Assembly (NCBI RefSeq): GCF_030816915.1
Contig: NZ_JAUSYN010000002.1
Span: forward strand, 6,585,501-6,649,500
Direction: 5' to 3'
Source: Streptomyces sp. B3I8
Lineage (GTDB): Bacteria > Actinomycetota > Actinomycetes > Streptomycetales > Streptomycetaceae
Length of the DNA stretch: 64,000 bases
Part shown: one piece after another, positions 19,890-47,654 of the stretch
Layout of the letters: the number at the start of each line of letters is the position of its first letter
Position numbering within the stretch: the stretch's first letter is position 1
Notes under the pieces: model-generated
The model's input: the letters and a program-made list of their open reading frames with translations, nothing else
The model's database searches: none
What the model was told of the DNA's origin: nothing
Position numbers and translations under genes: made by a program

Positions 19890-19891
19890 TA

Positions 19892-20053: not shown

Positions 20054-20066
20054 TAGGCTGGCTGAC

Positions 20067-21521: not shown

Positions 21522-22424
21522 CTAGCGGGGACGGGGACGGGCGCCGGCCGACCACAGGTCCTTCAGCGATTCCTGGAGCGAGTGGGACGGCCGCCAGCCG
21601 AGGTGCTTGGCGGCGGCGGAGATGTCGGAGCATTGCCAAGGGACCTGCCCCGACCGGGCTGAACCGGCACCCTGCTCCTCGATCGTGCCGCGGAAGCCGG
21701 CGGTGTCCGCGAGTAACCGCACCAGACGGCGCACCGGGACGGCGTCTCCGCCGCCGATGTTGAGCACGTCCGGCAGCGGTCCTGGCACGGTCACTGCCCG
21801 TTCGGTGGCGTGCGCCACGTCACGGGCGTCGACGAAGTCCCGGTGCGCAGTCAGGTCGCCGAGCCGCAGCACCGCGTCGGGGCCGGTCCCTGCCTCACGC
21901 ATCAGCGCGGTGACCCGACCGGGCAGGCCGGCGGCCGGCGCGCCGGACCCCACCGGATTGCCGATCCGCAGCACTACTGCGTCCAGCCCCGAGGCAGTCA
22001 CCGCGACGGTGCCGGCCAGTTTTGTTGCCCCGTACACGGTCACGGGGCTCGTGGCTGCCGACTCGGTGGTGCGGACCTCCGGGATGCCGGGACCGTACTC
22101 GGCGGCCGAACCCAGGTGGACCAGCCGGGTCGAGGGACAGGCCTGGGACAGCGCCGCGCAGAGCACGGCAGGACCGCGGGCGTTGACCTCCACCAGCGTT
22201 ACCGGGTCGCCGTCGACTGCGCCAGCGCAGTTGACCACGGCGTCAGGCGCCACCATGGCGAGCACCTCGGCCAGATGGTGGGCGGAGTCGGCCGTCAAGT
22301 CGACGGGCACCTCGGCGACCGGTGAACGGCCGCCGCCAAGGACCTGCGTGCCAGGCAGCGCGGCGAGCCGCCGGGCGATGTGGGCTCCCAGGTAACCGGT
22401 GTGGCCCAGGACGAGGATGCGCAT
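21522..22424 (-). CDS. NAD-dependent sugar epimerase/reductase (RmlD-like)
   Basis: A 300-residue short-chain-dehydrogenase-fold enzyme: NAD motif LVLGHTGYLGAHIARRLA, the conserved PDAVVNCAGAVDGDP, catalytic YGATK (VTVYGATKLAGTVAV), RIGNPVGSGAPA and HRDFVDARDVAHATE. The overall layout fits NDP-4-keto-sugar reductases or epimerases. It is last in the long minus-strand cluster, seven nt downstream of the nucleotidyltransferase stop, so it is probably co-transcribed with it. The IS5 remnant begins 26 bp beyond its stop. The exact sugar is unknown; reduction of a 4-keto intermediate is the most likely reaction. Confidence 0.82.
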   Translation of the reverse strand: MRILVLGHTGYLGAHIARRLAALPGTQVLGGGRSPVAEVPVDLTADSAHHLAEVLAMVAPDAVVNCAGAVDGDPVTLVEVNARGPAVLCAALSQACPSTRLVHLGSAAEYGPGIPEVRTTESAATSPVTVYGATKLAGTVAVTASGLDAVVLRIGNPVGSGAPAAGLPGRVTALMREAGTGPDAVLRLGDLTAHRDFVDARDVAHATERAVTVPGPLPDVLNIGGGDAVPVRRLVRLLADTAGFRGTIEEQGAGSARSGQVPWQCSDISAAAKHLGWRPSHSLQESLKDLWSAGARPRPR

Positions 22425-22431
22425 ACTCCGG

Positions 22432-23160
22432 TCAGGTTTCTCTGAGCAGCAGGGCCTTACGGCTGGTGAACTCCGCATTGGCTTGGTCGTAGTCGTCGGG
22501 GCGTCCGATGTCCAGCCAGTACCCCTCGAACTCGTACGCATCCGGCGGCTCGCCGGCCTTGAGTAGGTCCAGGACCAATTCGTCCAAGCCCAGGGGGAGT
22601 CCGACGGTGTACCCGTCGAGCGTGGCCCGGGACAGTCCGTACACCCCCATGGAGACGCGACAGTTCAGGCTGGGCTTCTCAGCGAAGCCGACTACCTTGC
22701 TGTCGGCGGTGGTCAGCACACCGAAGTCGACGTGCACCGTCCGGGCGTAGGTGGCGATGGTCAGTGGAGCTTCAGAGTCCCGGTGCCGAGCGAGGACGTC
22801 GGCAAAGTTCAGGTCGGTGAGGATATCGCCGTTCATCACCAGAAAATGCTCCGGCAGCCGCTCCCGCATGCTGACCAGTGGCCCCATGGTGCCCAGCGGG
22901 CTCTCCTCGGTGGAGTAGTCGATCTCCAGGCCCCACTGGGAGCCGTCGCCGACGTAGGCGCGGATGATCTCGCCGAGGTGGCCTATCGCGATGGTGCAGT
23001 CGGTGAAGCCGAATGTGGCGAGCTGGCGAAGGACGATCTCCAAGATGGCATGTTGGTCGCCGATGGGTACGAGCGGCTTGGGGAGCGCGGTGGTATACGG
23101 ACGCAGCCGGACTCCCTTGCCACCGGCCAGAATTACTGCGTGCAAGGTCTTCCCCCTCAT
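22432..23160 (-). CDS. Sugar-1-phosphate nucleotidyltransferase
   Basis: Activates a sugar-1-phosphate to an NDP-sugar. The 242-residue protein shows the nucleotidyltransferase signature VILAGGKGVRLRPYT with PKPLVPIG, the metal-binding Asp in FLVMNGDILTDL, the FAEKPS loop and YWLDIGRPDDYDQANAEF at the C-terminus. It lacks the left-handed-helix acyltransferase domain of GlmU and is shorter than RmlA, closer in size to HddC or mannose-1-phosphate guanylyltransferase-like enzymes. The nucleotide and sugar are not deducible. It lies 20 nt downstream of the dehydratase gene stop and just upstream of the RmlD-like gene. Confidence 0.88.
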   Translation of the reverse strand: MRGKTLHAVILAGGKGVRLRPYTTALPKPLVPIGDQHAILEIVLRQLATFGFTDCTIAIGHLGEIIRAYVGDGSQWGLEIDYSTEESPLGTMGPLVSMRERLPEHFLVMNGDILTDLNFADVLARHRDSEAPLTIATYARTVHVDFGVLTTADSKVVGFAEKPSLNCRVSMGVYGLSRATLDGYTVGLPLGLDELVLDLLKAGEPPDAYEFEGYWLDIGRPDDYDQANAEFTSRKALLLRET

Positions 23161-23180
23161 CGGTGGATGTGCCGGTGCGG

Positions 23181-24182
23181 TCAGATGTTGTAGATGCCGG
23201 TCTTGTAACGGGCGAGGTTGACCGGGTCGCGAAAGAATTCGACGGTGGCCGCGAGCCCCTGCTCCAGGTCGTGCGACGGACTCCAGCCGGTAGCGTTGCG
23301 GAGTCGGCTCGAGTCCGCGACCAGCCGTACCACCTCGGAGTTCGTGGGCCGTAGCCGTTGCGCGTCTTCCCGTACGTGCAGCGAGGTGTCCATCACCTTA
23401 CCGATGAGCGCCACAAGGTCGCCGATGGAGATTTCCCCGCCAGTACCGGCGTTGAACGTCCGCCCCACCACCTGCCCGGCGGGCGCTGTACCGACGGCCA
23501 GGAACGCCTGCGCGGTGTCCTTGACGAAGGTGAAGTCCCGGGTGGGCCTGAGGGTTCCCAGTGTGATGGTCCGCTTCCCGGCAGCGACCTGACCGATGAC
23601 GGTAGGGATCACCGCCCGCATCGACTGCCGGGGACCGAAGGTGTTGAACGGCCGCAACGTCACCACCGGGGTTTCGAAACTGGCGTGGTAGCTGTCGGCC
23701 AGACAATCTGCACCCGCCTTCGACGCGGCGTACGGCGACTGGGTGTTGATCGGGTGGACCTCGGTGATCGGCACGATCTGTGCGCTGCCATACGTCTCGC
23801 TGGTGGAGGTGTGCACAAGCCGGGGCGTGCCTGCAGCCCGCACTGCCTCCAGCACGTTGAGCGTGCCGGTGACGTTGGTGTCCACGTAACTGTGCGGCGC
23901 CCGGTAGGAATAGGGAATCGCGACCAGCGCCGCGAGGTGGTAGACACAGCTAGCGCCCTTGACGAGGTGTCGAACAGAACTGGGGTCCCGGACGTCGCCG
24001 AGGACGACCTCCACCTGCTCCAGCACATCAGGGTGTAGTGCCTCCAGCCAGCCGTAGGAGGAGAAGGGGTTGTACTGAGCCATGGCTCTCACCCGGTACC
24101 CCGAGGCGACGAGGGCCTCGGTGAGGTGGGAGCCGATGAATCCGTCGGCTCCGGTCACGGCGGCGAGTGGGATGGAAGTCAC
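23181..24182 (-). CDS. NDP-sugar 4,6-dehydratase (LegB-like)
   Basis: A 333-residue extended SDR, probably converting an NDP-hexose or NDP-HexNAc to its 4-keto-6-deoxy form. Seen are the NAD motif VTGADGFIGSHLTEAL, the catalytic Thr in LVHTSTSETYGSA (Thr plus Asp/Glu pair of 4,6-dehydratases), YxxxK as YAASK, and RPFNTFGPRQSMRAVIPTVIGQ with the GTLRPTRDFTFVKDTA segment that is strongly like UDP-GlcNAc 4,6-dehydratase LegB. The start is the GTG at 24180-24182 after GGAAGGA. It lies upstream of the nucleotidyltransferase in the same direction. Confidence 0.85.
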   Translation of the reverse strand: MTSIPLAAVTGADGFIGSHLTEALVASGYRVRAMAQYNPFSSYGWLEALHPDVLEQVEVVLGDVRDPSSVRHLVKGASCVYHLAALVAIPYSYRAPHSYVDTNVTGTLNVLEAVRAAGTPRLVHTSTSETYGSAQIVPITEVHPINTQSPYAASKAGADCLADSYHASFETPVVTLRPFNTFGPRQSMRAVIPTVIGQVAAGKRTITLGTLRPTRDFTFVKDTAQAFLAVGTAPAGQVVGRTFNAGTGGEISIGDLVALIGKVMDTSLHVREDAQRLRPTNSEVVRLVADSSRLRNATGWSPSHDLEQGLAATVEFFRDPVNLARYKTGIYNI

Positions 24183-24334
24183 GCGGAGTCCTTCCAGTGG
24201 ACGATGACGATACGGAGAGGGCGACCCGCTGGGAGCGGTGTGGGCGCTTCCGTCGCGTTGGTGGGTCCGTAGCTTTGTGACCGGTCGAAAGAACACTTGC
24301 GCGCGGCCACGGACATCGTGCTTCCGGTGGAGTC

Positions 24335-25198
24335 CTACCGACGCGTCGGTCCACCATCCGCTGCGGGTAGGTCGGTGAACCGTCCCAGACGCAAGCCAAG
24401 TCGCCGCAGCGTCTCACGCAGGGCAGCGGAGGTGAGCCCGGCGAGCTCTGCCTCCCATTGGTAACCCCATGCGTAGCGGATCCGGTCGCTGGCCGTGGGC
24501 TCTCCGGGGTGGAAGTTGACTTCGAAAGCGCGGGCCGGCCCGCGGGCCAAACGCTCGACGAGGCGCTGCGTCCTCGACAGCGTGAGTGAACCGGCCTCGT
24601 CGAGCCCGCCGTAACCCTCGGGAAAGTCCAGCCCGGCGGACCGGAGACGGGTCGCCAGCGACCGACTCCAGTGACGGACCACTATGCCTCGTGGGCCGGG
24701 CGCGGTACTCGTCGGCACTCGCACCGCAGGGATTCCCCACTTGGTGGCAAGCTCCGCCACAATCCGCCCGATGGGCGGGTAGAGGTGCAGGTGCTGGTGT
24801 GTGTCGACGTGCCCGAGCGGCAGCCCGAGGTCCCGGACGAGCCGTTCGAGTTGCGCGCCGAACTCGCGCCGGACATCAGCCATGTCGACGCGTCCTGCCA
24901 TCGCCGCGGTCGTGAACGACCGCCACCCGGGCTTGAACGCGCCGTGGCCGTCGACCAGTGTGGGAATCTCTCGCGCAGTGAGCAACGGAGGGTCCTCACC
25001 GACCACGGCCAGATGCGCGCCGACTCCGAGGCCCGGGCGATCCCTCAGCCCAGCAACGGCACGATCCACTGCGGGACCGACGGCGAGCACCGAGACGCTA
25101 CTGATCAGCCCGGTGTCGTGAGCGCGGAGGACACCTCGTGAGATGCCATCGCTCAAACCGTAGTCGTCGGCGTTGAGGATGAGTAATCGGGCAGTCAC
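24335..25198 (-). CDS. YdjC/ChbG-family carbohydrate deacetylase
   Basis: A 287-residue member of the YdjC (ChbG/HpnK) family, metal-dependent deacetylases of N-acetyl sugars. The metal site is visible as NADDYGLS near the N-terminus (Asp) and GHVDTHQHLHLYPP (His-x-x-x-His). VNFHPGEPT carries a further conserved His. The GTG start overlaps the stop of the glycosyltransferase gene by GTGA, implying that removal of an N-acetyl group follows or accompanies glycosyl transfer. Related enzymes act on N-acetyl-pseudosugars in antibiotic pathways (family knowledge); the substrate here is unknown. Confidence 0.85.
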   Translation of the reverse strand: MTARLLILNADDYGLSDGISRGVLRAHDTGLISSVSVLAVGPAVDRAVAGLRDRPGLGVGAHLAVVGEDPPLLTAREIPTLVDGHGAFKPGWRSFTTAAMAGRVDMADVRREFGAQLERLVRDLGLPLGHVDTHQHLHLYPPIGRIVAELATKWGIPAVRVPTSTAPGPRGIVVRHWSRSLATRLRSAGLDFPEGYGGLDEAGSLTLSRTQRLVERLARGPARAFEVNFHPGEPTASDRIRYAWGYQWEAELAGLTSAALRETLRRLGLRLGRFTDLPAADGGPTRR

Positions 25199-26403
25199 CG
25201 GACGGGTCCCCCGTTTCCCTCACCAGCAGGCCGAGCGAACACCCATTGCTGCATCAGCGTAAAACGCAGCAGGGACGCAAGGGCGTCACCAGCGAGCAGC
25301 ACGCACAACTCCACGGCCCTACTGGCATGCGGGCCGAGGGCGAGCAGACTCGCGCTGACACACAGGAGACTGATGAGGAATGCGACGGCGCCTTTTGCCT
25401 GGTGCCGGAACATGTCGTGACGGGTCTGCACCCCGAAAGTGATTCGCCTGTTCGCCGCAGTGTTGAGCACGGTGGCGAGCAGGAGCCCCAGTCCGTTCGC
25501 CGGCAGCGCTGGCATCATCGTTCTGAACCCGAGGTAGAGCAGGACGTGCAGGACTCCGGTCACTGCACCGACCGCCGCGAAGCGCAGGAACCGGTGCACT
25601 GGCCCGGCGAGTAGTTTCGGGCGCTGCAGATGCGGTGGCAACGGTCTGATCAGCGACCCGCGCATTCTACGGCCGGCCACGCGAACGACACCGCGCAGCA
25701 TGTCCCAGACCGTGCGTCTGATGTCGACCGAGGTCTCGGGGTCGTCGAGGCAGTCGACCGGGACCTCGTGTATGCGCATCCCCTGGCGCTGCGCCACACA
25801 GAGCAGTTCCGTGTCGAAGAACCACTTGTCGTCGTGGACCGTCGGCAGAAGAGCCTGCACTACCTCTCGCCGCCCCGCTTTGAAGCCGCATTGGGCGTCG
25901 GAGAAGTTTACTCCGAGTACGATGCGCAGGATCAGGTTGTAGGTGCGCGAGAGTACGGAGCGCAGCAGAGACCTTCGCACGCTTGCACCCCGGGCGTGCC
26001 GGGTGCCGATCGCCAGGTCACTGTGGCCCGAGGCCAGCGGTGCGACGAGGGGCAGGAACCCATTGAGGTCGATCGACAGATCCGCATCCATGTAGCTGAC
26101 CACGTCGGCCCTGCTCTCGGCCCACACGTGCCGCAACGCCAGACCGCGTCCACGTCCGTCGAGACTGACGAATTCCACTTCGGGGAACCGTCGGGCCAGG
26201 GCCGCACCGACATCGCGAGTCGAGTCGACGCTGCCGCTTTCTGCGATGGTGATGAGGAATGGGTAGGGGAAGTTCTGGACGAGGTAGTCGTGCAGGCGGT
26301 GGATACTTGAGGGAAGCATCTTCGCTTCATTGCGCACCGGTATGACAATCTCGGTCAGGGGCGCCTGCGTCGCCTTGGCCGGTTCCTTGGCAGTCGTAGT
26401 CAT
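25195..26403 (-). CDS. Fusion of GT2 glycosyltransferase and GtrA-like membrane domain
   Basis: A 402-residue two-domain protein. The first 230 residues are a family 2 glycosyltransferase of the dolichol-phosphate-mannose-synthase type (TEIVIPVRNEAKMLPSSI, SGSVDSTRDVGAALA, the DxD motif in VVSYMDADLSID, DAQCGFKAGRR). Residues about 275-395 hold four hydrophobic segments of the GtrA family (FLRFAAVGAVTGVLHVLLYLG, NGLGLLLATVLNTAANRRITF, GAVAFLISLLCVSASLLAL, ELCVLLAGDALASLLRFTLMQ). Such fusions make polyprenyl-phosphate sugars and move them across the membrane. The ATG at 26401-26403 begins MTTTAKEPAKA; a longer upstream frame looks non-coding. Confidence 0.88.
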   Translation of the reverse strand: MTTTAKEPAKATQAPLTEIVIPVRNEAKMLPSSIHRLHDYLVQNFPYPFLITIAESGSVDSTRDVGAALARRFPEVEFVSLDGRGRGLALRHVWAESRADVVSYMDADLSIDLNGFLPLVAPLASGHSDLAIGTRHARGASVRRSLLRSVLSRTYNLILRIVLGVNFSDAQCGFKAGRREVVQALLPTVHDDKWFFDTELLCVAQRQGMRIHEVPVDCLDDPETSVDIRRTVWDMLRGVVRVAGRRMRGSLIRPLPPHLQRPKLLAGPVHRFLRFAAVGAVTGVLHVLLYLGFRTMMPALPANGLGLLLATVLNTAANRRITFGVQTRHDMFRHQAKGAVAFLISLLCVSASLLALGPHASRAVELCVLLAGDALASLLRFTLMQQWVFARPAGEGNGGPVR

Positions 26404-26846
26404 GGACGCTGCCTCTCGATGGCCGCGCGGTGAATGCGCGGGTCTATGGCATTCGGGTCTGAGCATCGGCCGAGTGGACCGCGCACCGTGGCTCTGCCGG
26501 GCGCCGGCCCGCCGTGACGGGAACACGAGGAGGGCATCCGGCCGGTAGCAGGAGCCGTGGTGCCCGTTCGGACGGCGGTGAGGCGGCGGACGCGGGTGCC
26601 GCTGCGACGGACGGCAGCGCAGTGAGTGTTCGCATGCGCTGTCCGAAGGTTCTGCGGGTTCTGTCACGGACTGAGCGCCCTCCGCGACCGAAAACCAGGA
26701 GGTACCCCGGACGAGGCGGTGGTGCGTATGCCAGATTGCCAGTGTCGCTTCGGCTTCTGGACGTGCGTGTTCCGCGAATGTGAGGGTCATTGGGTCACCT
26801 CCATCTGCGTCTGGCCTGCTACCGGAAGGGTTCCGGTGCTACGCCC
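26404..26846. other. Non-coding gap of about 440 bp inside the minus-strand cluster
   Basis: No open frame here has coding character. It separates the GT2/deacetylase/dehydratase group from the HAD gene and its upstream partners, so it probably holds the promoter of the former. I could not identify convincing promoter boxes or a strong hairpin. Confidence 0.4.
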
Positions 26847-27485
26847 TCATGGGCTTGAGGAGCTTTCCTGAGCTGGGACGAGAAGCGACAGAGCGGCCGG
26901 AAGCCTGGAAGGATGGGGCACGTGCAGTGAGTTCATGCCGAACCGGCGGGCAGCTTCGACGTTTTCGGGGTTGTCGTCGACGAACGTGGCCTCATCGGGG
27001 AAACAGCCACAGGCTGTGAGCAGCTGGTGGAAGTACTCGGATCGGGGTTTCTCTGTCCCGATGTGCCACGACGAGCCGATGACGTCGAACAGTTCGAAGT
27101 GGCGGTAGCGCGCGTTTTTCAGTTTGTCCCAATGCTCGGCCTCGTTGTTTGCCAACGCGAGCACCAGGCCGGTATCACCGGTCCGCAGATGTCGCAGGGC
27201 GATGAACGCCGTGTCGTACGCGCGGACGCTGTCCATGTAGAGGCTGTCAGTCCATTCCGGCTCCACAGAGCCGATGTCGGCGCCCGCCGCGTTGAGGCAG
27301 TCGGCCAGAACCGCGTGTACGTGACGGGCCCCGGTCTCGTACGCACGGTCGTGTAGGTCGAGCTGACGCCGCACCTCCTGGGGGTCGGCTCCATGTTGTC
27401 GGGCCAGGCGCGGCAGGAAATCGGTTTCCTCAGTGACGTTGTTGAACAATATGCCCCCGGCGTCCACGAGTAGTGCCCTGATCAC
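26847..27485 (-). CDS. HAD-family hydrolase lacking the second motif I aspartate
   Basis: A 212-residue HAD protein: motif I LLVDAGGILFN, motif II LVLALANNEAEHWDKL, Lys in IGTEKPRSEYFHQLL and motif IV ATFVDDNPENVEAARRFGM. Motif I has D-A-G instead of D-x-D, so the usual acid/base Asp of phosphatases is missing; this resembles haloacid-dehalogenase-like members and raises doubt about plain phosphatase activity. It is coupled by ATGA overlap to the upstream SDR gene. In the cluster it may act on a sugar phosphate or have a non-hydrolytic role. Confidence 0.75.
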   Translation of the reverse strand: MIRALLVDAGGILFNNVTEETDFLPRLARQHGADPQEVRRQLDLHDRAYETGARHVHAVLADCLNAAGADIGSVEPEWTDSLYMDSVRAYDTAFIALRHLRTGDTGLVLALANNEAEHWDKLKNARYRHFELFDVIGSSWHIGTEKPRSEYFHQLLTACGCFPDEATFVDDNPENVEAARRFGMNSLHVPHPSRLPAALSLLVPAQESSSSP

Positions 27486-28441
27486 ACTCGCTCCAGGTGT
27501 TCTCGCAGCCAGACGGTGTTCTCTTCCAGACCGGATTCCAAGGAGTACTGAGGTGCCCAGCCAGTTGCTCGGCGCAACTTCGTGGCGTCCGCTCGCAGCA
27601 TGTCGACCTCGCCAGGCCGCGCGGGCGCCATCCGTATCTCACTCTTCGACGCAGTCATGCGCAGGATGAGATGCGCGAGGCTGAGGATGTCGTGATCGGT
27701 TCCGGTGCCGATGTTGTAAGCGTCGCCAACGGGTGCGAGTTCGGCCAGCCGCAGGAACGCGTCCACAGTGTCCTGCACATAAGTCAGGTCGCGGGTCTGT
27801 GAGCCCGTTCCGTTGACGAGCAACGGTTCCCCGCGTAGAGCTTTGACGAGAAAGATCGGCACGACGTCATAGACGTGTCGGGGACCATAGCAGTTGAACG
27901 GCCGCACGATGGTCAGTGGAACGTCGAAGGTGTTTCGGTACGACCAGGAGATTCTGTCGCACGCCACCTTCGAGGCGGCGTAGGGAGTCGCCGGTCTCAG
28001 CGGGTATTTTTCGGTGATTGCGGTGTCGTGTGAGCCGTAGATCTCGCTCGAACTGGTGAGGAGGACGTGTCGCGGTCCGGCCAGCCGTGCGGCCTCCAGA
28101 ACGTTCACTGTGGAAGAGATGTTGGTTTGGATGACCGAGGTGGGCTGCGTCAGTGAGGCCGGCACATATGCGTCGGCGGCAAGGTGGAACCATGTGTCGG
28201 CCTGGACAGCGCCCAGGGTGGCGACGGCTGAAGGGGCGGCCAGGTCGGTCTGGATCAGAGACTGCAGACTGGCGACTGCCTGCGGTGACAGGTTGTGGAA
28301 GCGCCGCGTCACCTGGGAGCGGGAGGTTCGCCGCACCACGGCCTGTACGCACGCGCCGCGTGACAGCAGTTCATCGACTAGGTGGGACCCGATGAAGCCG
28401 TCGGCTCCGGTGACGAGGACGGTACGGTCTCGCCAGTTCAT
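27482..28441 (-). CDS. NAD-dependent sugar dehydratase/epimerase (GDP-mannose 4,6-dehydratase-like)
   Basis: A 319-residue extended SDR with NAD motif VTGADGFIGSHLVDELL, catalytic Ser in VLLTSSSEIYGSHDTA, YxxxK as YAASK, RPFNCYGPRHVYDVVPIFL and the NGTGSQTRDLTYVQDTVDAF substrate loop. The TSSSEIYG motif with an acidic residue at the active site suits a 4,6-dehydratase or 4-epimerase acting on an NDP-sugar. It overlaps the aminotransferase stop upstream (ATGA) and the HAD start downstream. It is the second dehydratase-like SDR of the cluster, suggesting either two different sugars or successive steps. Confidence 0.82.
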   Translation of the reverse strand: MNWRDRTVLVTGADGFIGSHLVDELLSRGACVQAVVRRTSRSQVTRRFHNLSPQAVASLQSLIQTDLAAPSAVATLGAVQADTWFHLAADAYVPASLTQPTSVIQTNISSTVNVLEAARLAGPRHVLLTSSSEIYGSHDTAITEKYPLRPATPYAASKVACDRISWSYRNTFDVPLTIVRPFNCYGPRHVYDVVPIFLVKALRGEPLLVNGTGSQTRDLTYVQDTVDAFLRLAELAPVGDAYNIGTGTDHDILSLAHLILRMTASKSEIRMAPARPGEVDMLRADATKLRRATGWAPQYSLESGLEENTVWLREHLERV

Positions 28442-29775: not shown

Positions 29776-29789
29776 GTGTTTCCTCCCGT

Positions 29790-33306: not shown

Positions 33307-33341
33307 ACAGGGGCCTCCAGGCAGGTGAGGAGGATGGCTGG

Positions 33342-33926: not shown

Positions 33927-33955
33927 GGTCGTCTCCGGAGGTCACATGATGCGGA

Positions 33956-35113
33956 TCAGTACTTGGCCGCGAACCTGGCGTGCGGCCGCAGGTGCCGGCC
34001 GTAGCGGAACGGGGACAGGTCGAGGCCGTCGACGGGGGAACGACCGCTCACGGCGTCAGCAATCAGCCGACCCGTGATGGGGGCAAGGAGAATTCCGTTG
34101 CGGTGATGGCCGGTGGCCACTAGAAAGCGGCGGTCGTCGGTGACACCGAGCACGGGCAGTTCGTCGGATGTCATAGGCCGGAAGCCGGCCCACATGTCTT
34201 CGAACTGCCAATGAGCCGCGTCCGGAACAACCTCGCAGAGCCGGGAGAGTACTGTCCCCACGACTCCGGCGGTGTTGTGTTCGTCCGGTACCAGGTATTC
34301 CTCGCTGGTACCCACGATGTAGCTGCCGGGCCGCCGTTCCACTATGGATCCGCAACCGCCGGCGGGCATGAAGATGACACTGCTGACCGCATGGGGAGGA
34401 CCGCTGAGTCGCATCATCTGTCCCTTGGCGGGACACAGGGGCACCTCCAGCCCGGCCAGCCGCGCGACGTCTGCCGTCCAGGCGCCTGCGGCGAGCAGGA
34501 CACGGTCGGCGACCACTCGGCTGCCGTCGCCGGCTGCCAGCACGATCCGTTCGCCCTGCTCGCCGATCTCGGCCAGTCCTCCCGTGTGCGCCCTGCCGCT
34601 CTGAGCGGCCACGGCGTTGCCCAGTTTCTCCCACAGCGCGATGGGATTGACGACTGCCTCGTCCCGGATCCTGATGGCCCCCCGTACAGCAGCGGGCGAG
34701 AGTGCCGGTTCGCGTGCGCAGACTTCTTCGGCCTCCAACCAGTCACAGTCGAAACCGAGTTGAGGCATCCAATCCATGCGCTCGCGCAGCGATTCCTCAC
34801 GCTCGCTGAGGTCGGTCAGCGTGAAATCGGTGATGCGATAGTCCACCTGCTCGGGTGTCGTCCAGTCGGAGCGCAGGAAGTGCTTGTAATAGGAAAAGCC
34901 CGCCTTAAGGAGGTCCAAGAATTGCTGGCACATCCAGGGGTCGTACTCGCAGGCCGGTGTCAGCATTCCAGCTGCGGCCGTCGAGGCTCTCCCTGTCGAT
35001 GGACCGCCCACGACGGCGACTCGATGCCCGGACTTCTGCAGATGCAGGGCGGCACTAAGCCCGATCAGACCGTCACCTACTACTGCCACATCAACACTGA
35101 CACGTTCATCCAT
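33956..35113 (-). CDS. FAD-dependent amine oxidase, glycine oxidase (ThiO)-like
   Basis: A 385-residue D-amino-acid-oxidase-family flavoprotein. It shows the FAD Rossmann motif VAVVGDGLIGLSAALHLQKSGHRVAVV at the N-terminus, STAAAGMLTPACEYD (the GxxAAGM loop of ThiO), VLLAAGAWTADVARLAG, CPAKGQMMRL and the C-terminal FD motif MWAGFRPMTSDELPVLG...FLVATGHHRNGILLAPITG. It should oxidise an amine to an imine with release of H2O2. No thi genes are nearby, so it probably works in the sugar or amino-sugar pathway rather than in thiamine synthesis. The start is the ATG at 35111-35113; a GTG just upstream is nearer to AAGGAGG. Confidence 0.82.
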   Translation of the reverse strand: MDERVSVDVAVVGDGLIGLSAALHLQKSGHRVAVVGGPSTGRASTAAAGMLTPACEYDPWMCQQFLDLLKAGFSYYKHFLRSDWTTPEQVDYRITDFTLTDLSEREESLRERMDWMPQLGFDCDWLEAEEVCAREPALSPAAVRGAIRIRDEAVVNPIALWEKLGNAVAAQSGRAHTGGLAEIGEQGERIVLAAGDGSRVVADRVLLAAGAWTADVARLAGLEVPLCPAKGQMMRLSGPPHAVSSVIFMPAGGCGSIVERRPGSYIVGTSEEYLVPDEHNTAGVVGTVLSRLCEVVPDAAHWQFEDMWAGFRPMTSDELPVLGVTDDRRFLVATGHHRNGILLAPITGRLIADAVSGRSPVDGLDLSPFRYGRHLRPHARFAAKY

Positions 35114-35371
35114 CACGTACTGGATACCTCCTTGCAGAAGCCGCGAGAGGTGCAGTCCAGGGTCGCGCAGAAATTCTGACCATCGGTTCAGCCGCGACGC
35201 AGGAGACATACTTCCCGACGTTTTAGCCGAGCAAACACGCGTATGCACTGAACACAACCGTGACCCATTTCGCTTGGAATCAACGCGCGTCCATCGTGTC
35301 CACGCAGTCTTCCTCGGCCATGTGGCACCACGTGCCAAGCGGGCAGCAAGCGGGCAGTGGTTCATCACTTA

Positions 35372-36223
35372 CAAGTCATCTTATTTGGCGAGGCGGCGGT
35401 AGCAGATGAGAGTGCAGGCGAGACTGGTGAAGGCTAGGAAGTGCACGGCCTTGCGTTCGTAGCGACGCTGAAGCCGGCGGCAGCCGCCGAGCCAGGCCAT
35501 GGTTCGTTCGATGGTCCAGCGGTGTCGACCGAGTCGCTGTGATGTCTCGACGCCCTTGCGGGCGATACGGTGCTGGATGCCTCTCTGTGACAGCCGTTGC
35601 CGCAGGTGCCGGTAGTCGTAGCCCTTGTCGGCGTGGAGCTTGCCGGGTCTTTGTCGACGAGGACCGCGGCGGGATCGGACCGGAGGTATGCCCTTCACCA
35701 GCGGGATCAGAGCCTGGCTGTCGTGGACGTTGGCACCCGAGATGCCGGCGGACAGGGGCAGACCCGTCCGGTCGGTTTTCAGATGGATCTTCGAACCGTA
35801 CTTGCCCCGGTCGACAGGATGCGGGCCTGTCAGGTCCCCCTTTTCAGGGCTCGCATGTTGACCGAGTCGATCGCGCACCGCGACCAGTCCAACTCGCCGC
35901 GAGAGCCGAGTTCGTCGAGGACCAGGCGATGGAGCTTGGCCCACACACGGGCTTTCGTCCACTCGGTGAACCGGCGATGCGCCGTCGCACCGGACGGGCC
36001 GAACGAGGCCGTCGGCAACTGCTGCCACGTGCAGCCCGAGGTCGTCACGAAGATGATCGCGGCCAGGACCTCACGGTCACCATGGCGACGCCGGCCGCCG
36101 CCCTGCGGACGTGACGGTGCCTCGGGCACCACCCGCTGGAACAGGTCCCACAGCTCTTCCGGCACCAGCCGCTCAACGATCCCCACCACAGCAGCAGCCT
36201 ACCCCGCCACATGAGATGACCTT
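35372..36223 (-). mobile_element. IS5-family element, about 850 bp, copy 1
   Basis: Ends GTCATCTTATTTGGCG (left) and GTCATCTCATGTGGCG (right, complement) form the inverted repeats; the same termini occur in the element at 45931-46783. No exact target duplication is seen (TTA on the left, TTG on the right). It lies between the two divergent arms of the sugar cluster. Confidence 0.78.
35381..36189 (-). CDS. IS5-family transposase, two frames joined by -1 frameshift
   Basis: The first frame (36189 down to 35830) encodes MVGIVERLVPEELWDLFQRV through SRCAIDSVNMRALKRGT, with the first catalytic Asp. The second frame continues with DLTGPHPVDRGKYGSKIHL, the second Asp in LHADKGYDYRHL and the Glu in WTIERTMAWLGG, ending at 35381 with CYRRLAK. 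The frames meet at a GAAAAGGGGG slip site near 35840, so a -1 shift would give the complete DDE enzyme. About 80% identical by eye to the copy at 45966-46774. Confidence 0.82.
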
Positions 36224-36831
36224 TTGCGGGCGAGACAGGAAGATCCTCGACCAACCATGCCGGAGGCAACGCCGAGTGGCACCGTCCGGTCCGGAGAGTG
36301 ACAGCGCGACCCGGCGCTCGCATCGGCGTCACTCCCCATCGTGGCTGTTCAAGGGCGTGCGGCGAAGACCGTAATCCACCCGGCGACCTCTCGTCTTCGG
36401 GGTGCTCTCCGAATTCCGATCAACCCTCCGACCCAACTGACTATTGCAGCTTCTCGGCCCTGCCCGCAGCATTCGTACAGAAGTAACGGTTGCTGCTCGA
36501 TCGGGCACCGCCGACCGCGAGGGGCGGGCGCCAAATCGGCCACCGGCCTCTGTTCCGCTGTGCAAGCTATCAGCCAAACCCCGATATCCCGTCACGCAGT
36601 GTGGACCTTCGCTCACCGGCCGAGTATTGTTGCAAATCGCCCTCAGTCCCTACGTTCAGCGCGTCTTGCGACGAATTCGGGAACCTGTCTCAGCCGAGTA
36701 CGCGCAGGACGCCCGCGACTCTTTCGCATCGCGGGTTGGGCCAGACGCAACTCCGTTCTGTGGTGCACCAGTCGGCGCCGCCTACGCAGGAGGATAGAAT
36801 TGGCTGTCGAACATTGAGTAATTCATTGGCG
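36224..36831. other. Non-coding gap of about 600 bp upstream of the plus arm
   Basis: No coding signal is convincing here. The GC content falls below that of the surrounding genes. The promoter of the wecB-like/ABC/GT87 operon should lie in it. An AGGAGG at 36788-36793 stands in the right place for translation but precedes no standard start codon in the coding frame. Confidence 0.4.
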
Positions 36832-37983
36832 GTGAACAAGCCGTCTCCAGTAGAGTCGAAGTTCGAGGTATCTGGCCGTATAGCGGTCGTGCTCGGTACT
36901 CGACCAGAGATGATCAAACTGGCTCCGGTCATCGCGCTGCTGGGTAGACGGGCTGCGACCGTCCATACCGGACAGCACTTCACCTCAGCTATGTCCGAGG
37001 GCATCAGCAGAGGTCTCCAGATGCCGGCATGGAGTACGAAACTAGGTATTGGCGGAACGCGACGCGGCTCCCAACTGGGTTCCGCCATTGCCTCCCTGGA
37101 CGACCTCTTCGCCTCCGAGAGGCCGACGGCAGTCGTCGTTCAAGGGGATACCAACTCGGCGCTGGCCGGGGCGATAGCCGCCAACGCGCACGACATCCCT
37201 CTGGTCCACGTGGAGGCGGGATTGCGCAGCTTCGACCGGCGCATGCCCGAAGAGTCCAACCGCGTATTGACCGATCACCTCGCCGACGTGTGTTGCGCTC
37301 CCACCGAAGGGAATCGGCGCAACCTGCTGAAGGAGGGCATACCAGCTGAACGCATCGTCGTGACGGGCAACACCGTGGTGGAGGCCGTGAGTTCGGCTTT
37401 GCCCGATCAAACGACGCGGCTGGCGACGAGGCGGCGGTACGGACTGGTGGAGAACGAGTACGTGCTGGCCACACTGCATCGCCCCGAGAACGTCGATGAC
37501 GAGCTCAACCTGCGTCACCTGCTCGTCGAGCTAGCGGCCCTGCCGCTACCGGTCGTCCTCCCGTTGCACCCACGTACCCAGAAGCGAGTAGAGGAGTTTG
37601 GACTCGAACTCCTCCTGCGCCGTCTCACGTGTACCGAACCGCTTCTCTACCGGGAATTTGTGACCCTGGCACATGGCGCGGCACTGGTCGTCTCCGACTC
37701 CGGGGGACTTCAGGAGGAAGTCACCGTACTGAAGCGCCCAATCGTCGTCGTACGTCGAAGCACCGAACGTCCGGAGATCGAGGAGGTGTTCGGCACGCTG
37801 ACTCCTCCGGGAGCGATGCTGGGGACCGTCCTGAAGAACTGGCTCGCCACCGCTTCCGAGCGGCACGAGCAGCTGGCGCTCCTGCCCTCACCGTATGGCG
37901 ACGGGCACGCTTCACTCCGGGTCGCCCGCCTGATTGAGAAACAGGCGACACTGCCCACCCGACCTCTCAGCACGATGACATGA
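36832..37983 (+). CDS. Non-hydrolysing UDP-GlcNAc 2-epimerase (WecB-like)
   Basis: A 383-residue GT-B-fold enzyme that interconverts UDP-GlcNAc and UDP-ManNAc. Key segments are VVLGTRPEMIKLAPVIALLG at the N-terminus, VVVQGDTNSALAGAIAANAHDIPLVHVEAGLRSFDRRMPEESNR (Asp, Glu and His active-site positions), LHRPENVDDE, LPLHPRTQKRVEEFG and VVSDSGGLQEEVTVLKRPIVVVR. The start is uncertain: I used the in-frame GTG at 36832, a TTG at 36814 is also in frame, and an ATT at 36799 sits just after AGGAGG. Directly upstream of the ABC exporter genes. Confidence 0.88.
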   Translation: MNKPSPVESKFEVSGRIAVVLGTRPEMIKLAPVIALLGRRAATVHTGQHFTSAMSEGISRGLQMPAWSTKLGIGGTRRGSQLGSAIASLDDLFASERPTAVVVQGDTNSALAGAIAANAHDIPLVHVEAGLRSFDRRMPEESNRVLTDHLADVCCAPTEGNRRNLLKEGIPAERIVVTGNTVVEAVSSALPDQTTRLATRRRYGLVENEYVLATLHRPENVDDELNLRHLLVELAALPLPVVLPLHPRTQKRVEEFGLELLLRRLTCTEPLLYREFVTLAHGAALVVSDSGGLQEEVTVLKRPIVVVRRSTERPEIEEVFGTLTPPGAMLGTVLKNWLATASERHEQLALLPSPYGDGHASLRVARLIEKQATLPTRPLSTMT

Positions 37984-38011
37984 ATTGGGCGCTAGGAAGC
38001 GAGCGATCACG

Positions 38012-38977
38012 ATGATCGAGACCACGAAGCTGTGCCGCTCCTTCTCCGCAGGGAAGAAGCGCCGGCGGGCGGAGCACCACAAGGTCACGGCCCTGGACGA
38101 GGTCAGCTTCTTCGTGCCAGCCGGGGAAACCCACGGCATTCTCGGCCCTAATGGCGCCGGCAAGACCACGCTGATCAAGATTCTCAGCACCATGTTGGCG
38201 CCTACCTCCGGCGAAGCCGTCGTCGCAGGTCATGATGTCGTCTCACAGACCGATGCCGTACGCAGGTGTATCGGCATGGTGTTTGGCGGGGATCGCGGGC
38301 TGTATGACCGTATCAGCGCACGGCAGAACCTGGTCTTCTGGGCGACGCTCTATCGGGTTGACGCCCGCCGAGTGGACGCTCGCGCCGCTGAACTGCTGGA
38401 GCGGGTTGGCCTTGCGGACCGTGCCGACGAGCCTGTGGAACGGTTCTCCAGGGGGATGCGCCAGCGACTGCACTTGGCACGCGGACTGGTCGGAGACCCC
38501 TCCGTGCTCTTCCTGGACGAGCCGACTGTGGGCATGGATCCCGTGGCCGCGAAAGAGTTTCGCTCCCTGATCGGCGAGTTACGTGCCGAGGGCCGCACCA
38601 TACTGCTCACCACTCACGACATGAGGGAGGCGGAAGCCTTGTGCGACCGTGTCACCCTGGTCGATCGCGGTCGCGTCCTCGCGACGGAGAAAACCGCATA
38701 CGTCGGCAGGCTTATCAAGGGATCCCTTGGCATCGACATCATCCTTGCACCCGGTCAGAGCGACACACTGAAGAGTCTGGCCGAGTTGAGCGAAGTCCGT
38801 TCTGTGGAACGTTTGCCCGGTGAGCACACGTTCCGCGTACACACCGAGTCACCCGCGTCGATGGAGACGGTGATGAGGTGGCTGGTGGACCGTGGAGTGC
38901 TGTCTCTCCAAGTCCGGAGCCCTTCCTTGGAAGAGGTCTACATGCGGTTGGTCGGGGAACGGGGACTCACTGTATGA
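38012..38977 (+). CDS. ABC transporter ATP-binding protein (ABC-2 exporter)
   Basis: A 321-residue ATPase subunit: Walker A GPNGAGKTTLIKIL, Q-loop region GMVFGGDRGLYDRISARQNL, signature FSRGMRQRLHLARGLVGDPSVLFLDEPTVGMDP with Walker B, and the switch His in TILLTTHDMREAEALCDRV. The Q-loop Gln is replaced by GG, unusual but seen in this exporter subfamily. The C-terminal 90 residues are the extension found in DrrA/NatA-type drug and polymer exporters. The start is the ATG at 38012. It overlaps the first permease by ATGA. Confidence 0.9.
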   Translation: MIETTKLCRSFSAGKKRRRAEHHKVTALDEVSFFVPAGETHGILGPNGAGKTTLIKILSTMLAPTSGEAVVAGHDVVSQTDAVRRCIGMVFGGDRGLYDRISARQNLVFWATLYRVDARRVDARAAELLERVGLADRADEPVERFSRGMRQRLHLARGLVGDPSVLFLDEPTVGMDPVAAKEFRSLIGELRAEGRTILLTTHDMREAEALCDRVTLVDRGRVLATEKTAYVGRLIKGSLGIDIILAPGQSDTLKSLAELSEVRSVERLPGEHTFRVHTESPASMETVMRWLVDRGVLSLQVRSPSLEEVYMRLVGERGLTV

Positions 38978-39741
38978 GCACTCTCCTTGCGGCTGCCAAG
39001 GTCCAGTGGCACACGAGCATCCGCGCGCCCGAACACCTCCTGGTGCTGGCGACTGCCCCCCTGTACACGCTGATCTTCCTCTCGGTCTTCCGAGACACCG
39101 ACCGGCCGGATCTGGTAGCGAACGCAGTGATAGGCACCGGCCTCCTCGGTATCTGGTTCGTGGCCGTGAACGTCGCTGGTGGGGTCATCCAGAACGAGAG
39201 GTGGATGTCCACGCTGGAACTGGTAATAGTCGCGCCCAGACCACTGGCCCTCATCATGTGCGGCCGGATCCTGCCCGTGATGCTGATCGGCAGTCTCGCC
39301 CTCGGGGAATCCTGGCTGATGGCCGTGGTCGCCTTCGGTGTCGACCTGCCTGTCCAGCACCCGGTTCTTGCGCTCGTGATTTTGCTCGTGACCCTCGCCG
39401 CCAGCGCATGTACGGCCACCATGCTCGCCGCGTTGTTCGTCATGAGCCGGAACACCGAGATGGTGCAGGCAGCGCTCAGCTATCCGTTCTACGTCCTCGG
39501 CGGCCTGGTCTTCCCGCTGTCGTCCCTCCCCAACGAGGTCGAATTCCTCGGCCGCTTCTTCTACCTCTCATGGGCGGCGGACCTGCTGCGCGACAGCGTC
39601 ACCCGTAGCACGGTCGACCACGCCTGGGAACGGATCGCCACCGTGGCGGGGATGGGAACGGTGGCACTGTTCATCGGCGTCCTGCTGCTCCGCAAGGTGA
39701 GCGACCGCGCCCGTACAACAGGGTCGGTGAGTCTCGCGTGA
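38974..39741 (+). CDS. ABC-2 type permease, first subunit
   Basis: A 255-residue integral membrane protein with about six hydrophobic segments (LLVLATAPLYTLIFLSVF, NAVIGTGLLGIWFVAVNVAGG, ILPVMLIGSLALGESWLMAVVAFG, LALVILLVTLAASACTATMLAALFV, YPFYVLGGLVFPLSSLP, ATVAGMGTVALFIGVLLL). This is the ABC2_membrane fold of exporters. It is coupled by 4-nt overlaps to the ATPase gene and the second permease, so the three form one heteromeric exporter. Confidence 0.87.
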   Translation: MSTLLAAAKVQWHTSIRAPEHLLVLATAPLYTLIFLSVFRDTDRPDLVANAVIGTGLLGIWFVAVNVAGGVIQNERWMSTLELVIVAPRPLALIMCGRILPVMLIGSLALGESWLMAVVAFGVDLPVQHPVLALVILLVTLAASACTATMLAALFVMSRNTEMVQAALSYPFYVLGGLVFPLSSLPNEVEFLGRFFYLSWAADLLRDSVTRSTVDHAWERIATVAGMGTVALFIGVLLLRKVSDRARTTGSVSLA

Positions 39742-40526
39742 ATTCTCGAGATGTCATAGTCCGCTCGGCACGGATGGGCTTCGCCGAACTCCCCACGACC
39801 TATACCCTCCGCTCGTGGACGGTCTGGTGGGTCATCCGCCTAGGGTGCCAGGCCCTGTTCTTCGCCCTCCTGGGCAGGCTGACCGGCGCACCGGGACGGC
39901 TGGACTACATGCTGATCGGCAACAGCGTGGCGGTAGTGGCCATGGAGACGATGTTCGTATCGACCACCGCCGTCACAGAGCGGTTCCAAGGAACCTTCCC
40001 CCTGCTGGTCATTTCGCCGGCCAACATGGGATTGGTTTACTTGGGCCGCGGACTGCACTGGCCGGCCTCCGGCCTCGCCAGCTCCTTCGCTGTCCTCTTC
40101 TCCCTCTCCCTCGTGTTCTCCTCTCCCTGGCGGTGGTGGCAGATCCTTGCCACACTACCCCTCCTGGGCCTGATTGCTGTCAGCACCTACTGCTATGCCT
40201 GCCTCATCGCCGCATTGTCGTTGCGCAACGTTAAGTTCCGGACGTTCTACCCCGAGACGGGCGCCCTTCTCCTCACTGCATTCTGCGGCGTGAACGTCAC
40301 CACCTCGTTCTGGCCCGGACCTCTTCACTGGTTCGCTCAGTTCCTGCCGCTGACGCACGGACTCCAGGCTGTGCGCAACCTGCTCAACGGCAGATCCTTC
40401 GCCTCAGTTCTGTTGCCGGCTTGCCTGGAGATCACCTGTGCCGCGCTATGGGCAGGTCTGACCCTGCTGTTGTTCGAACGCATCGTCGCGGCAGGCAGGC
40501 GAGACGGTTCACTCGCCTTCAGCTGA
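39738..40526 (+). CDS. ABC-2 type permease, second subunit
   Basis: A 262-residue membrane protein with about six segments (WVIRLGCQALFFALLG, YMLIGNSVAVVAMETMFVS, ASGLASSFAVLFSLSLVF, ILATLPLLGLIAVSTYCYACLIAAL, ETGALLLTAFCGVNVTTSF, CLEITCAALWAGLTLLLFE). GTG start at 39738 in a 4-nt overlap. It pairs with the preceding permease and ATPase. The substrate is unknown, but the flanking wecB-like and GT87 genes suggest a glycan, glycolipid or glycosylated small molecule. Confidence 0.86.
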   Translation: MNSRDVIVRSARMGFAELPTTYTLRSWTVWWVIRLGCQALFFALLGRLTGAPGRLDYMLIGNSVAVVAMETMFVSTTAVTERFQGTFPLLVISPANMGLVYLGRGLHWPASGLASSFAVLFSLSLVFSSPWRWWQILATLPLLGLIAVSTYCYACLIAALSLRNVKFRTFYPETGALLLTAFCGVNVTTSFWPGPLHWFAQFLPLTHGLQAVRNLLNGRSFASVLLPACLEITCAALWAGLTLLLFERIVAAGRRDGSLAFS

Positions 40527-40527
40527 G

Positions 40528-41898
40528 GTGACCGGCAACCCTCCTTCACCATCGCCGACAGCGCAGGAGCGTGACAAGGTGATTCCACGCCCGAACGCCC
40601 TCACCGACACTCAGACCGAAGCCCGAGCGGACCGCCTCGTCGCCTGGTCGGCTCGTAACGCGGTGCTACTGCTTATCTTGCCTCTCCTCGTATACGCCAC
40701 GCTTATCTGTTTCGATCCTCTGGCACGCAACTACGGCATGGACGTCGACGTATACCAGGCAGCAGGGGAAGCCGTCCGCAACGGTGACTCCTTGTATGAA
40801 GGCCCGGTGACGGACCTGAACTACAACTACACGCCGTTCGCGGCGCTGCCTCTTGTGGCAATGACCGTGGTACCGCCCGAGGCACTCCACCTCCTGTGGT
40901 TCCTCATCAACATGACCCTGCTCGTCTACGTCATCGCCACCGCGCTCTCCATGATCGGGACACGGCTGGGCGGGCGGATACTGCGTGCCTCGATCGGTCT
41001 CGCCGGGCTCATGCTGTGGCTCCAACCGGTCACTTGGGGCATGGTGCTGGGCCAAGTGAACTTGGTGATCGCCTCCATGGTTCTGTGGGACGGCAAGAAC
41101 AGCCCGGCCTCCGGACCGCACAAGTGGTACCGAGGCATCCTGATCGGAGTCGCTACCGGTATAAGGCTGACCCCGGGACTGTTCATCATCTATCTGCTGG
41201 TGATCAGGAGAACGCGTACCGCGCTCATGGCTTGCGCCGGATTCTTCGCGACCGTCGCTGTCGGCTTCATCGCCCTGCCCCATCAGTCACTCTGGTACTG
41301 GCAGGGGCACTTTGCAGACGTCGGTCACATCGACGGCGACAACCACGATCGCGACGTCCAGTCGCTGGCCGCGACCATGTCCCGGTTGTTGGACCGTGAT
41401 CAGCCACCCGCGGTCCTCTGGTTGGTCCTGGCGTGTCTGCTGGGGGCCGCTGGGCTAGCGGTGGCCGCCCGGGCCTATCGAAGGGGACACACGCTGCTCG
41501 GGCTCACACTGTGCGGACTGACCGCCGAGGCGGTAGCACCCTTCTCGTGGAGTCACCACTGGGTCTGGCTGGTTCCCGCGACCTTAATGGTCGTGAGCTG
41601 GGCTGCAAGAGGCTCTCGCCGTCGGTTGCATCTAACTGTGGTCGCCGTACTGGTGTGTCTGGCGGCCTGGCCGTTGGGCTACCTCACACACGATCGCCTG
41701 GGTCCCATACTCGGGACGATCGCACTGCCTCTCGTGTCACCGTTCGACATCATCTACGGGAACCTCTACCTGTGGCTCTACTTCGGCATTCTGATCGTCG
41801 CCATGTCTCTGGGTGACCGGACGGCGGCCAAGACACCTCTGTCCGACAGCGATCGAGCAGCTAGGCGGGCGGCCCCGGAGGACGGCATCCGTTCATGA
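40528..41898 (+). CDS. GT87-family polyprenyl-phosphate-dependent glycosyltransferase (membrane)
   Basis: A 456-residue protein with about nine to eleven membrane segments. After the first one (AVLLLILPLLVYATLICF) comes the extracellular acidic motif NYGMDVDVYQAAGEAVRNGDSLYE followed by LNYNYTPFAALPLV, the signature of GT87/DUF2029 mannosyltransferases such as PimE, which use a lipid-linked sugar on the outer face. It begins one base after the permease stop. It may use a lipid-linked sugar made by the GT2-GtrA fusion protein of the minus arm (inference). The last 30 residues are charged and cytoplasmic. Confidence 0.85.
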   Translation: MTGNPPSPSPTAQERDKVIPRPNALTDTQTEARADRLVAWSARNAVLLLILPLLVYATLICFDPLARNYGMDVDVYQAAGEAVRNGDSLYEGPVTDLNYNYTPFAALPLVAMTVVPPEALHLLWFLINMTLLVYVIATALSMIGTRLGGRILRASIGLAGLMLWLQPVTWGMVLGQVNLVIASMVLWDGKNSPASGPHKWYRGILIGVATGIRLTPGLFIIYLLVIRRTRTALMACAGFFATVAVGFIALPHQSLWYWQGHFADVGHIDGDNHDRDVQSLAATMSRLLDRDQPPAVLWLVLACLLGAAGLAVAARAYRRGHTLLGLTLCGLTAEAVAPFSWSHHWVWLVPATLMVVSWAARGSRRRLHLTVVAVLVCLAAWPLGYLTHDRLGPILGTIALPLVSPFDIIYGNLYLWLYFGILIVAMSLGDRTAAKTPLSDSDRAARRAAPEDGIRS

Positions 41899-46783: not shown

Positions 46784-46786
46784 TAA

Positions 46787-47651: not shown

Positions 47652-47654
47652 TAA

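Follow-up and report, generated by a model that had tools for sequence, protein, structure and literature searches.

A kasugamycin-type gene cluster in Streptomyces sp. B3I8 with a putative lipid-carrier glycosylation branch

The locus described here raises the question of what is made by a set of sugar-processing, glycosyltransferase and exporter genes that lie together at positions 21,522-42,378 of a 64,000-nucleotide stretch of DNA (the window; contig NZ_JAUSYN010000002.1, positions 6,585,501 to 6,649,500), which is part of the 8.0-Mb genome of Streptomyces sp. B3I8. The original prediction, made from the DNA letters, was of an unrecognised cluster for a small secreted glycoside, glycolipid or pseudo-oligosaccharide with deoxy/amino sugars, and not for a standard capsule. 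Our comparisons support a small secreted pseudo-oligosaccharide and narrow it to one with a kasugamycin-type core, kasugamycin being an aminosugar-inositol pseudodisaccharide. By homology, the assignment of the core is strong and we hold it with little doubt. As to the product, we lean towards an aminoglycoside similar to kasugamycin which, once exported, would likely receive one more sugar outside the cell.

A profile made from an alignment of DegT-family enzymes and scanned against genome contigs returned 25 loci, six of them kasugamycin-type (kas-type) loci of Streptomyces (L011-L016) and 19 distant ones (no more than 38% identity). L011 belongs to S. varsoviensis NRRL ISP-5346, L012 to S. 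aureocirculatus, L014 to S. celluloflavus and L016 to S. rhizoryzae. Ten named organisms were common to the homologues of the toroid protein of the cluster (42 proteins, its own included) and the 120 DegT-enzyme matches listed, which indicated a shared cluster. The epimerase open reading frame (ORF) of L014 matches the KasQ PDB entries 7vz6, 7vyy and 7vza with 829-849 bits, and all ten kas cloning primers tried map onto L014 with no more than 2 mismatches (0-2); for four tailed primers, the final 24 bases were compared. Primer P121 falls in kasR. Primers P122 and P123 fall inside the toroid gene, which is therefore kasB, and the toroid protein named in the original prediction is the kasB product. 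Anchored by the KasQ structures and the primers, the S. celluloflavus locus is, by sequence, the kasugamycin cluster; the names kasO, kasE, kasH and kasI in it were inferred from gene order. We take L013, L015 and L016 as kas clusters proper because KasJ, KasP, KasQ and KasF are found there with 75-89% identity to L014.

Gene families were assigned with Pfam and NCBIfam, and protein comparison with L014 identified eleven kas-type genes in two collinear blocks. They are listed here with their identities to L014 and, where given, to S. varsoviensis, followed by the acetyltransferase gene at the KasH position:

26847-27485, minus strand: KasE-type HAD phosphatase (49%; S. varsoviensis 74%)
27482-28441, minus strand: KasD-type nucleoside diphosphate (NDP)-sugar 4,6-dehydratase (62%; S. 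varsoviensis 86%)
28438-~29793, minus strand: KasC-type class III aminotransferase (60%; S. varsoviensis 84%; Pfam 247 bits)
29790-30932, minus strand: KasB-type toroid protein (45%)
30929-32107, minus strand: KasA-type GT4 glycosyltransferase (61%; S. varsoviensis 83%)
32104-33306, minus strand: KasR-type pyridoxal phosphate (PLP) 3-dehydratase, DegT family, RfbH type (58%)
33342-33926, minus strand: KasO-type orphan, 194 aa (36%, E 6e-21; S. varsoviensis 70%)
33956-~35113, minus strand: KasN-type glycine oxidase, ThiO-like (59%; S. varsoviensis 82%; ThiO 209 bits, cut-off 251)
37985-38977, plus strand: KasK-type ABC exporter ATPase with Walker and signature motifs (63%)
38974-39741, plus strand: KasL-type ABC-2 permease (65%)
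39738-40526, plus strand: KasM-type ABC-2 permease without a Pfam match (48%)
41983-42378, plus strand: GNAT acetyltransferase, KasH-position homologue (65% over 131 aa)

The families named in the original prediction were all found where it had placed them, the KasM-type ORF through its match to KasM instead of Pfam; the HAD phosphatase, the 194-aa orphan, the GNAT gene just past 41898 and an insertion sequence (IS) of the IS5 type lay outside its list. The order N-O-R-A-B-C-D-E is collinear with L014, and K-L-M is collinear but in the opposite orientation. The cluster thus shares with the kas cluster of S. kasugaensis and S. celluloflavus the sets kasR-A-B-C-D-E, kasN-O and kasK-L-M and an acetyltransferase at the KasH position, whereas its KLM block is reversed. 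The kasugamine-forming core (KasD, KasR and KasC) and KasA are present, as are KasB, KasE, KasN, KasO and KasKLM (36-65% to L014) with their order kept within the blocks. With some starts estimated, the minus-strand genes for the HAD phosphatase and the KasD-, KasC-, KasB-, KasA- and KasR-type proteins overlap one another by 4-7 bp. The published roles of the kasugamycin genes, most of which are themselves proposals, match this gene set as far as the available text of PMC8869731 describes them.

Of the core genes, the toroid gene is a rare one. Its profile (E no greater than 1e-10, own genome included) found it in 2 of 392 genomes of the genus, 3 of 391 of the order and 2 of 394 of the class, as well as in 2 of 355 genomes of the family of genome G417 (G417 included), in samples that overlap and with five first-look candidates scored per genome in the rows shown. 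The GT4 search was unspecific, with matches in 61 of 61 genomes and, among the matches listed, no more than 45% identity beyond the own copy. None of the literature titles listed described the present cluster or assigned one of kasugamycin type to S. varsoviensis. No paper on the product of the S. varsoviensis locus turned up either; one of those listed deals with reveromycin.

The KasR-type enzyme has a His in place of the Schiff-base Lys, and its His pair H196/H197 is invariant in 23 of 23 aligned sequences; the four-cysteine Fe-S motif of E1 was absent from it in a motif test. With the invariant pair and without the E1 motif, it resembles ColD-type PLP dehydratases, and its nearest solved structure is PDB 9wvy (455 bits). 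For the KasB-type toroid protein, the AlphaFold model (pLDDT 91) predicts an (alpha/alpha)6 barrel of the AGE/cellobiose-2-epimerase/GH88 type. Foldseek matched it to cellobiose 2-epimerase, N-acylglucosamine 2-epimerase, unsaturated glucuronyl hydrolase and some squalene-hopene cyclase chains (best match: E 1.1e-7, TM ~0.63, 12% identity), and a sugar-acting role is likely on the model. The gene of the KasO-type orphan adjoins the glycine oxidase gene. The homologue search for this protein returned four proteins, the window's own among them, and its AlphaFold model has a mean pLDDT of 37. Its C-terminal IRESD tail is invariant in all eight aligned sequences, a degree of conservation that hints at a place in the active site or at binding of a partner. 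The KasN-type oxidase is the proposed iminoacetyl-group enzyme. According to the accessible part of PMC10156733, Orf1, a flavoenzyme of ThiO-like type, is able to furnish some acceptors with an N-glycine imine resembling that of kasugamycin. The 131-aa GNAT ORF aligns end to end with its counterpart at the KasH position of L014, both giving weak matches to general GNAT models of NCBIfam, and it is predicted to serve in self-resistance. KasH was seen at one of the four kas loci L013-L016. The protein at the KasF position of L014 scored 99 bits against the NCBIfam model AAC(2')-IIb (cut-off 390).

Even so, this is not the cluster of kasugamycin itself, since no KasJ, KasF or KasQ proper was found. 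KasJ, proposed to epimerise inositol and to take part in making D-chiro-inositol, had no match in the whole own genome (51 candidates scored) nor in the genome of S. varsoviensis, and genome-wide search found it in S. aureocirculatus (46%) and in genome G575 (57%). KasF, a self-resistance acetyltransferase, had no match in the own genome, and the ORF at the KasI position of L014 had none in the window. The place of KasQ, a UDP-GlcNAc 2-epimerase, is taken by another gene:

36490-37983, conserved from ~36862, plus strand: WecB-family non-hydrolysing UDP-sugar 2-epimerase (84% to S. varsoviensis)

The encoded epimerase is closer to the WbpI-type structure 8sxv (248 bits) than to KasQ 7vz6 (163 bits) and is 39% identical to L014 KasQ. 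The same WbpI-like type occurs in L011 (84%) and L012 (62%), and by these scores KasQ is replaced by a different, WbpI-like epimerase. The description of the cluster as unrecognised therefore stands in part: its core pathway is of the described kasugamycin type, yet the cluster itself differs from kas, with 36-65% identity and several kas genes missing, so that the two are not near-identical.

Relative to the kas cluster, a group of genes is added:

21522-22424, minus strand: RmlD/epimerase-type short-chain dehydrogenase/reductase (SDR), a predicted NDP-sugar ketoreductase (Pfam Epimerase 124 bits)
22432-23160, minus strand: NTP_transferase, a sugar-1-phosphate nucleotidyltransferase (84% to S. 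varsoviensis)
23181-24296, start uncertain, minus strand: LegB-type UDP-GlcNAc 4,6-dehydratase-like SDR (NCBIfam LegB 450 bits, cut-off 475)
24335-25198, minus strand: YdjC/HpnK-type carbohydrate deacetylase (Pfam 190 bits; HpnK 174 bits, cut-off 233)
25195-~26403, minus strand: GT2 glycosyltransferase fused to a GtrA membrane domain (Pfam GT2 and GtrA/DPMS; 84.5% to S. varsoviensis)
40528-41898, plus strand: GT87 (GT-C), a PimE-like membrane glycosyltransferase (Pfam GT87 130 bits)

We consider that these genes belong to the cluster, because all but the two SDR genes share a conserved block with S. varsoviensis, the GT87 gene starts 1 bp after the kasM-type gene, and the YdjC gene overlaps the GT2-GtrA gene by 4 bp. 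The successive spacings of the epimerase, KasK-, KasL- and KasM-type and GT87 genes are 1, -4, -4 and 1 bp (some starts estimated). The conserved DNA block covers 22415-41797 (~19 kb) and is interrupted by three gaps of more than 400 bp. Its nucleotide matches that score over 80 bits run at 22415-23158, 24363-26440, 26876-33954, 33956-35148 and 36757-41797 with 80.7-83.5% identity. As these matches span the block and one isolated stretch lies elsewhere, the clustering is beyond chance, and homologues of the cluster are not scattered but keep a conserved neighbourhood. The NTP, YdjC, GT2-GtrA and GT87 proteins are 76-84.5% identical to their S. varsoviensis counterparts (YdjC 81%) and the core proteins 70-89%, both sets thus falling within a similar range. 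The S. varsoviensis locus differs in that it lacks the LegB- and RmlD-type SDRs and a KasH-like gene and shows no IS match between its operons. The isolated stretch, the only other match above 80 bits, is 372 bp at 8435-8806 (79% identity) and lies ~9 kb beyond the S. varsoviensis kas-type block.

The GT2-GtrA protein has four PDB matches, one dolichol-P-mannose synthase and three ArnC, and is predicted to be a polyprenyl-phosphate sugar synthase/flippase. The sole PDB match of the GT87 protein is PimE (9dm5). PimE residues D58, Y62, Y92, Q163, W319, H321 and H322 correspond to D72, Y76, Y101, Q176, W341, H343 and H344 of the GT87 protein. In PimE, mutants of D58, Y62, Y92, Q163, W319 and K195 lost activity, those of H321/H322 were weakened and D160A was drastically reduced, as given in the available text of PMC12041525. 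By this alignment, the GT-C catalytic Asp and the donor-phosphate residues are largely kept. The YdjC protein has intact NADD and HxDTHxH motifs, and a deacetylase gene is present here, whereas none was reported for the kas cluster.

From gene content, order, homology, catalytic residues and absences, all read from the DNA, we infer every substrate, the final structure and expression, and propose the following pathway. The epimerase and the KasD-, KasR- and KasC-type enzymes would convert UDP-GlcNAc into a kasugamine-type 2,4-diamino-tetradeoxy sugar, which the KasA-type GT4 would join to inositol. Since the genome yielded no match to KasJ, this inositol is probably left unepimerised. A mycothiol-like route, in which KasA would act on inositol phosphate and KasE would be the phosphatase, was considered as a candidate by analogy; the match of the GT4 to the MshA PDB entry covers the C-terminal half, the acceptor-site residues lying outside the comparison. 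The glycine-derived imine would come from the KasN-type glycine oxidase, perhaps aided by the KasO-type protein. Export would fall to the KasKLM-type proteins, and protection of the producing cell to the KasH-like acetyltransferase. In parallel, the nucleotidyltransferase, in this strain with the two extra SDRs, may supply an NDP-sugar. The GT2-GtrA protein would load its sugar on polyprenyl phosphate and flip the lipid-carried sugar, YdjC would deacetylate the lipid-carried amino sugar, and the aminoglycoside, by then exported, would receive it through GT87.

Sugar transfer outside the cell is suggested by the PimE residues of GT87, the matches of GT2-GtrA, the HpnK-like YdjC and a proposed precedent among peptide antibiotics. 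For peptide antibiotics such as ramoplanin, polyprenyl-sugar-dependent tailoring outside the cell, with polyprenyl phosphomannose as the donor, has been proposed, and the antibiotic-cluster GT-C membrane enzymes Ram29, MppH-I, Tcp15 and Dbv20 are likewise suggested to use lipid-carried sugars there (both in the consulted part of PMC4635501). The present case differs in its predicted pseudodisaccharide aminoglycoside acceptor, in the GT87/PimE type of the enzyme and in having a donor synthase and a deacetylase in the cluster. Lipid-carrier glycosylation is the best reading of the added genes and the main novelty of the locus, and we would put its chances at about even. More tentatively, the product may be a kasugaminyl-inositol trisaccharide, whose last sugar would come from a polyprenyl carrier. 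Such a compound would be finished beyond the membrane and perhaps become active only there. Another kasugamycin relative, minosaminomycin, is made by joining enduracididine, leucine and an amino sugar (PMC5238550, in the text available); no amino-acid ligation or enduracididine genes are among the cluster ORFs scanned here.

Several findings weigh against the proposed pathway. Orthologs of the RmlD- and LegB-type SDRs are missing from the S. varsoviensis locus, where the LegB-type query matches the KasD-type SDR only (39%), and the second sugar is left undefined. GT2-GtrA and the nucleotidyltransferase score far under the cut-offs of their nearest characterised models, mannose-1-phosphate guanylyltransferase being the top NCBIfam model for the latter. 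In GT87, Arg213 stands in place of PimE K195 and Val173 in place of the acceptor residue D160. The S. varsoviensis locus has no KasH-like gene, and KasT, a regulator, gave no tblastn match in the window, to which that search was confined. KasP, the F420-type oxidoreductase proposed as a reductase, was not found in the window; a putative F420-dependent enzyme is noted for the kas cluster in the accessible text of PMC8498797. A 49% relative of KasP lies outside the cluster in the own genome and may be unrelated to the role of KasP. Such a relative (48-49%) is present in four of four genomes tested, including the kas producer, where it occurs beside the latter's own KasP, and for this reason the absence of KasP from the cluster is hard to read. 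In favour of the proposal, the added genes other than the two SDRs occur at both KasJ-less loci (the window and S. varsoviensis) and at none of the six KasJ-bearing ones (L012-L016 and G575), so that 8 of 8 loci are consistent with replacement of KasJ by them, but these eight include four close kas clusters, flanks of ~10 kb at L013 and L015, a KasJ cut by the locus end in L013 and a stretch of L012 that starts from a contig end. The underlying searches found no NTP, YdjC, GT2-GtrA, GT87 or RmlD-type SDR gene in L012-L016 with the added stretches L042-L044, nor in L040-L041 beside L014, and none of the first four in 28 kb at the distant, KasJ-bearing G575 locus.

The most serious competing explanation concerns YdjC, whose substrate could be the kasugamine moiety itself and not a sugar on a lipid. 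According to section 3.2 of the KasQ paper, a deacetylase is needed and none was found in the kas cluster (PMC8869731). The cluster would then be of kasugamycin type with YdjC as the missing deacetylase that strips the kasugamine precursor of its 2-N-acetyl group, and GT2-GtrA and GT87 would have lesser or separate roles. The intact motifs of YdjC and its conservation in S. varsoviensis suit this explanation. YdjC was, however, not found in the stretches of L013-L016 or of L012, and the kas pathway thus seems to run without it there. Moreover, its gene overlaps the GT2-GtrA gene, and its best model, HpnK, acts on a lipid-linked aminosugar. We regard this alternative as doubtful, though worth keeping in mind.

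It is also conceivable, but unlikely, that a kas-type antibiotic cluster merely has as its neighbour a set of genes for a cell-envelope glycan (NTP, GT2-GtrA, YdjC, GT87 and the SDRs) unrelated to it. ArnC, PpgS and PimE are cell-envelope enzymes; all three are among the nearest models, each below its cut-off, and ArnC and PimE are among the nearest solved structures. For PimE, this role is also stated in the available text of PMC12041525. Yet the added genes lie at both ends of the kas core, with GT87 directly behind the kasM-type gene, and in S. varsoviensis those other than the SDRs form a single conserved block with the core, while the flanks differ. We therefore prefer the lipid-carrier branch as part of the cluster.

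A further point against an active pathway is a mobile element:

35375-36220, minus strand: IS5-type insertion sequence whose ends match imperfectly (12 of 14 bp)

It lies between the divergent operons, in their shared upstream region, and it could have switched off what would then be a decaying, silent cluster. The transposase genes that flank the cluster on both sides, a second IS copy and the lack of a KasT-type regulator in the window fit such a scenario. In contrast, the 18 translated cluster frames contain no stop and the GNAT frame is likewise open, and we consider silencing improbable.

The GC content is 0.654 in the cluster, 0.725 in the left flank and 0.666 in the right flank. The second IS5-type copy (45934-46780) is 82% identical to the first. 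An overlapping 1.36-kb direct repeat at 46311-47654 and 47169-48522 (87% identity) apparently represents stacked IS copies. A 167-bp direct repeat at 19890-20056 and 63670-63836 (96% identical, nearly 44 kb apart) brackets the cluster region.

That the cluster makes kasugamycin itself, with missing functions supplied from elsewhere in the genome, is very hard to credit. The KasR-A-B-C-D-E, N-O and K-L-M set is complete, a KasH-like GNAT is present and a KasP-like paralog exists elsewhere in the genome, but we rejected this explanation since the genome holds no match to either KasJ or KasF. For the extra glycosyltransferases, no role in kasugamycin is known, and the KasR tree argues against it as well: the window sequence shares a group with S. 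varsoviensis and P0045 (100/100), the S. aureocirculatus set adjoining (95/91), and this group lies outside the starred seven-row clade that holds P0062, the L014 KasR, in a tree with long outgroup branches. A capsule, exopolysaccharide or O-antigen cluster was rejected, as among the cluster ORFs scanned the family models picked out neither a polymerase nor a flippase nor a priming phosphoglycosyltransferase. No polyketide synthase or nonribosomal peptide synthetase appeared among these ORFs either; the original prediction had likewise noted no polymerase, priming enzyme or synthase of these two kinds.

Other kas-type loci were seen in the course of the searches. S. aureocirculatus (L012/L042) represents a third type, in which a WbpI-like epimerase, KasJ (43-46%) and a KasH-like GNAT (51%) come after kasR-A-B-C-D-E; no KLM, N or O genes were found in this stretch, which starts at a contig end. 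The distant locus in G575 (C1:7337000-7365000, L048/L049) encodes KasJ (57%), a GT4 (52-56%), a KasD-type SDR (52-54%) and a toroid protein (33%), together with a DegT enzyme, a GT8, a PhyH-type oxygenase and an Orn/DAP decarboxylase-like protein, and perhaps makes another kasugamycin-related product. Very distant toroid homologues (E ~1e-31 to 1e-33) occur in G701 (L050/L051) and G1221 (L053/L054), the G701 stretch containing no other kas core gene beyond an epimerase-family match.

In summary, the cluster likely makes a new relative of kasugamycin, a crop antibiotic whose pathway is described as still incomplete in the available text of PMC8869731. The clusters of the window and of S. varsoviensis are natural knock-in/knock-out versions of that pathway, with no KasJ, no local KasP, another epimerase and an added deacetylase, and such variants would make it possible to test what KasJ, KasP and the deacetylation step still missing contribute. 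If the membrane branch does act on the product, lipid-carrier tailoring, so far proposed for peptide antibiotics, would extend to aminoglycosides and the product would represent a new scaffold.

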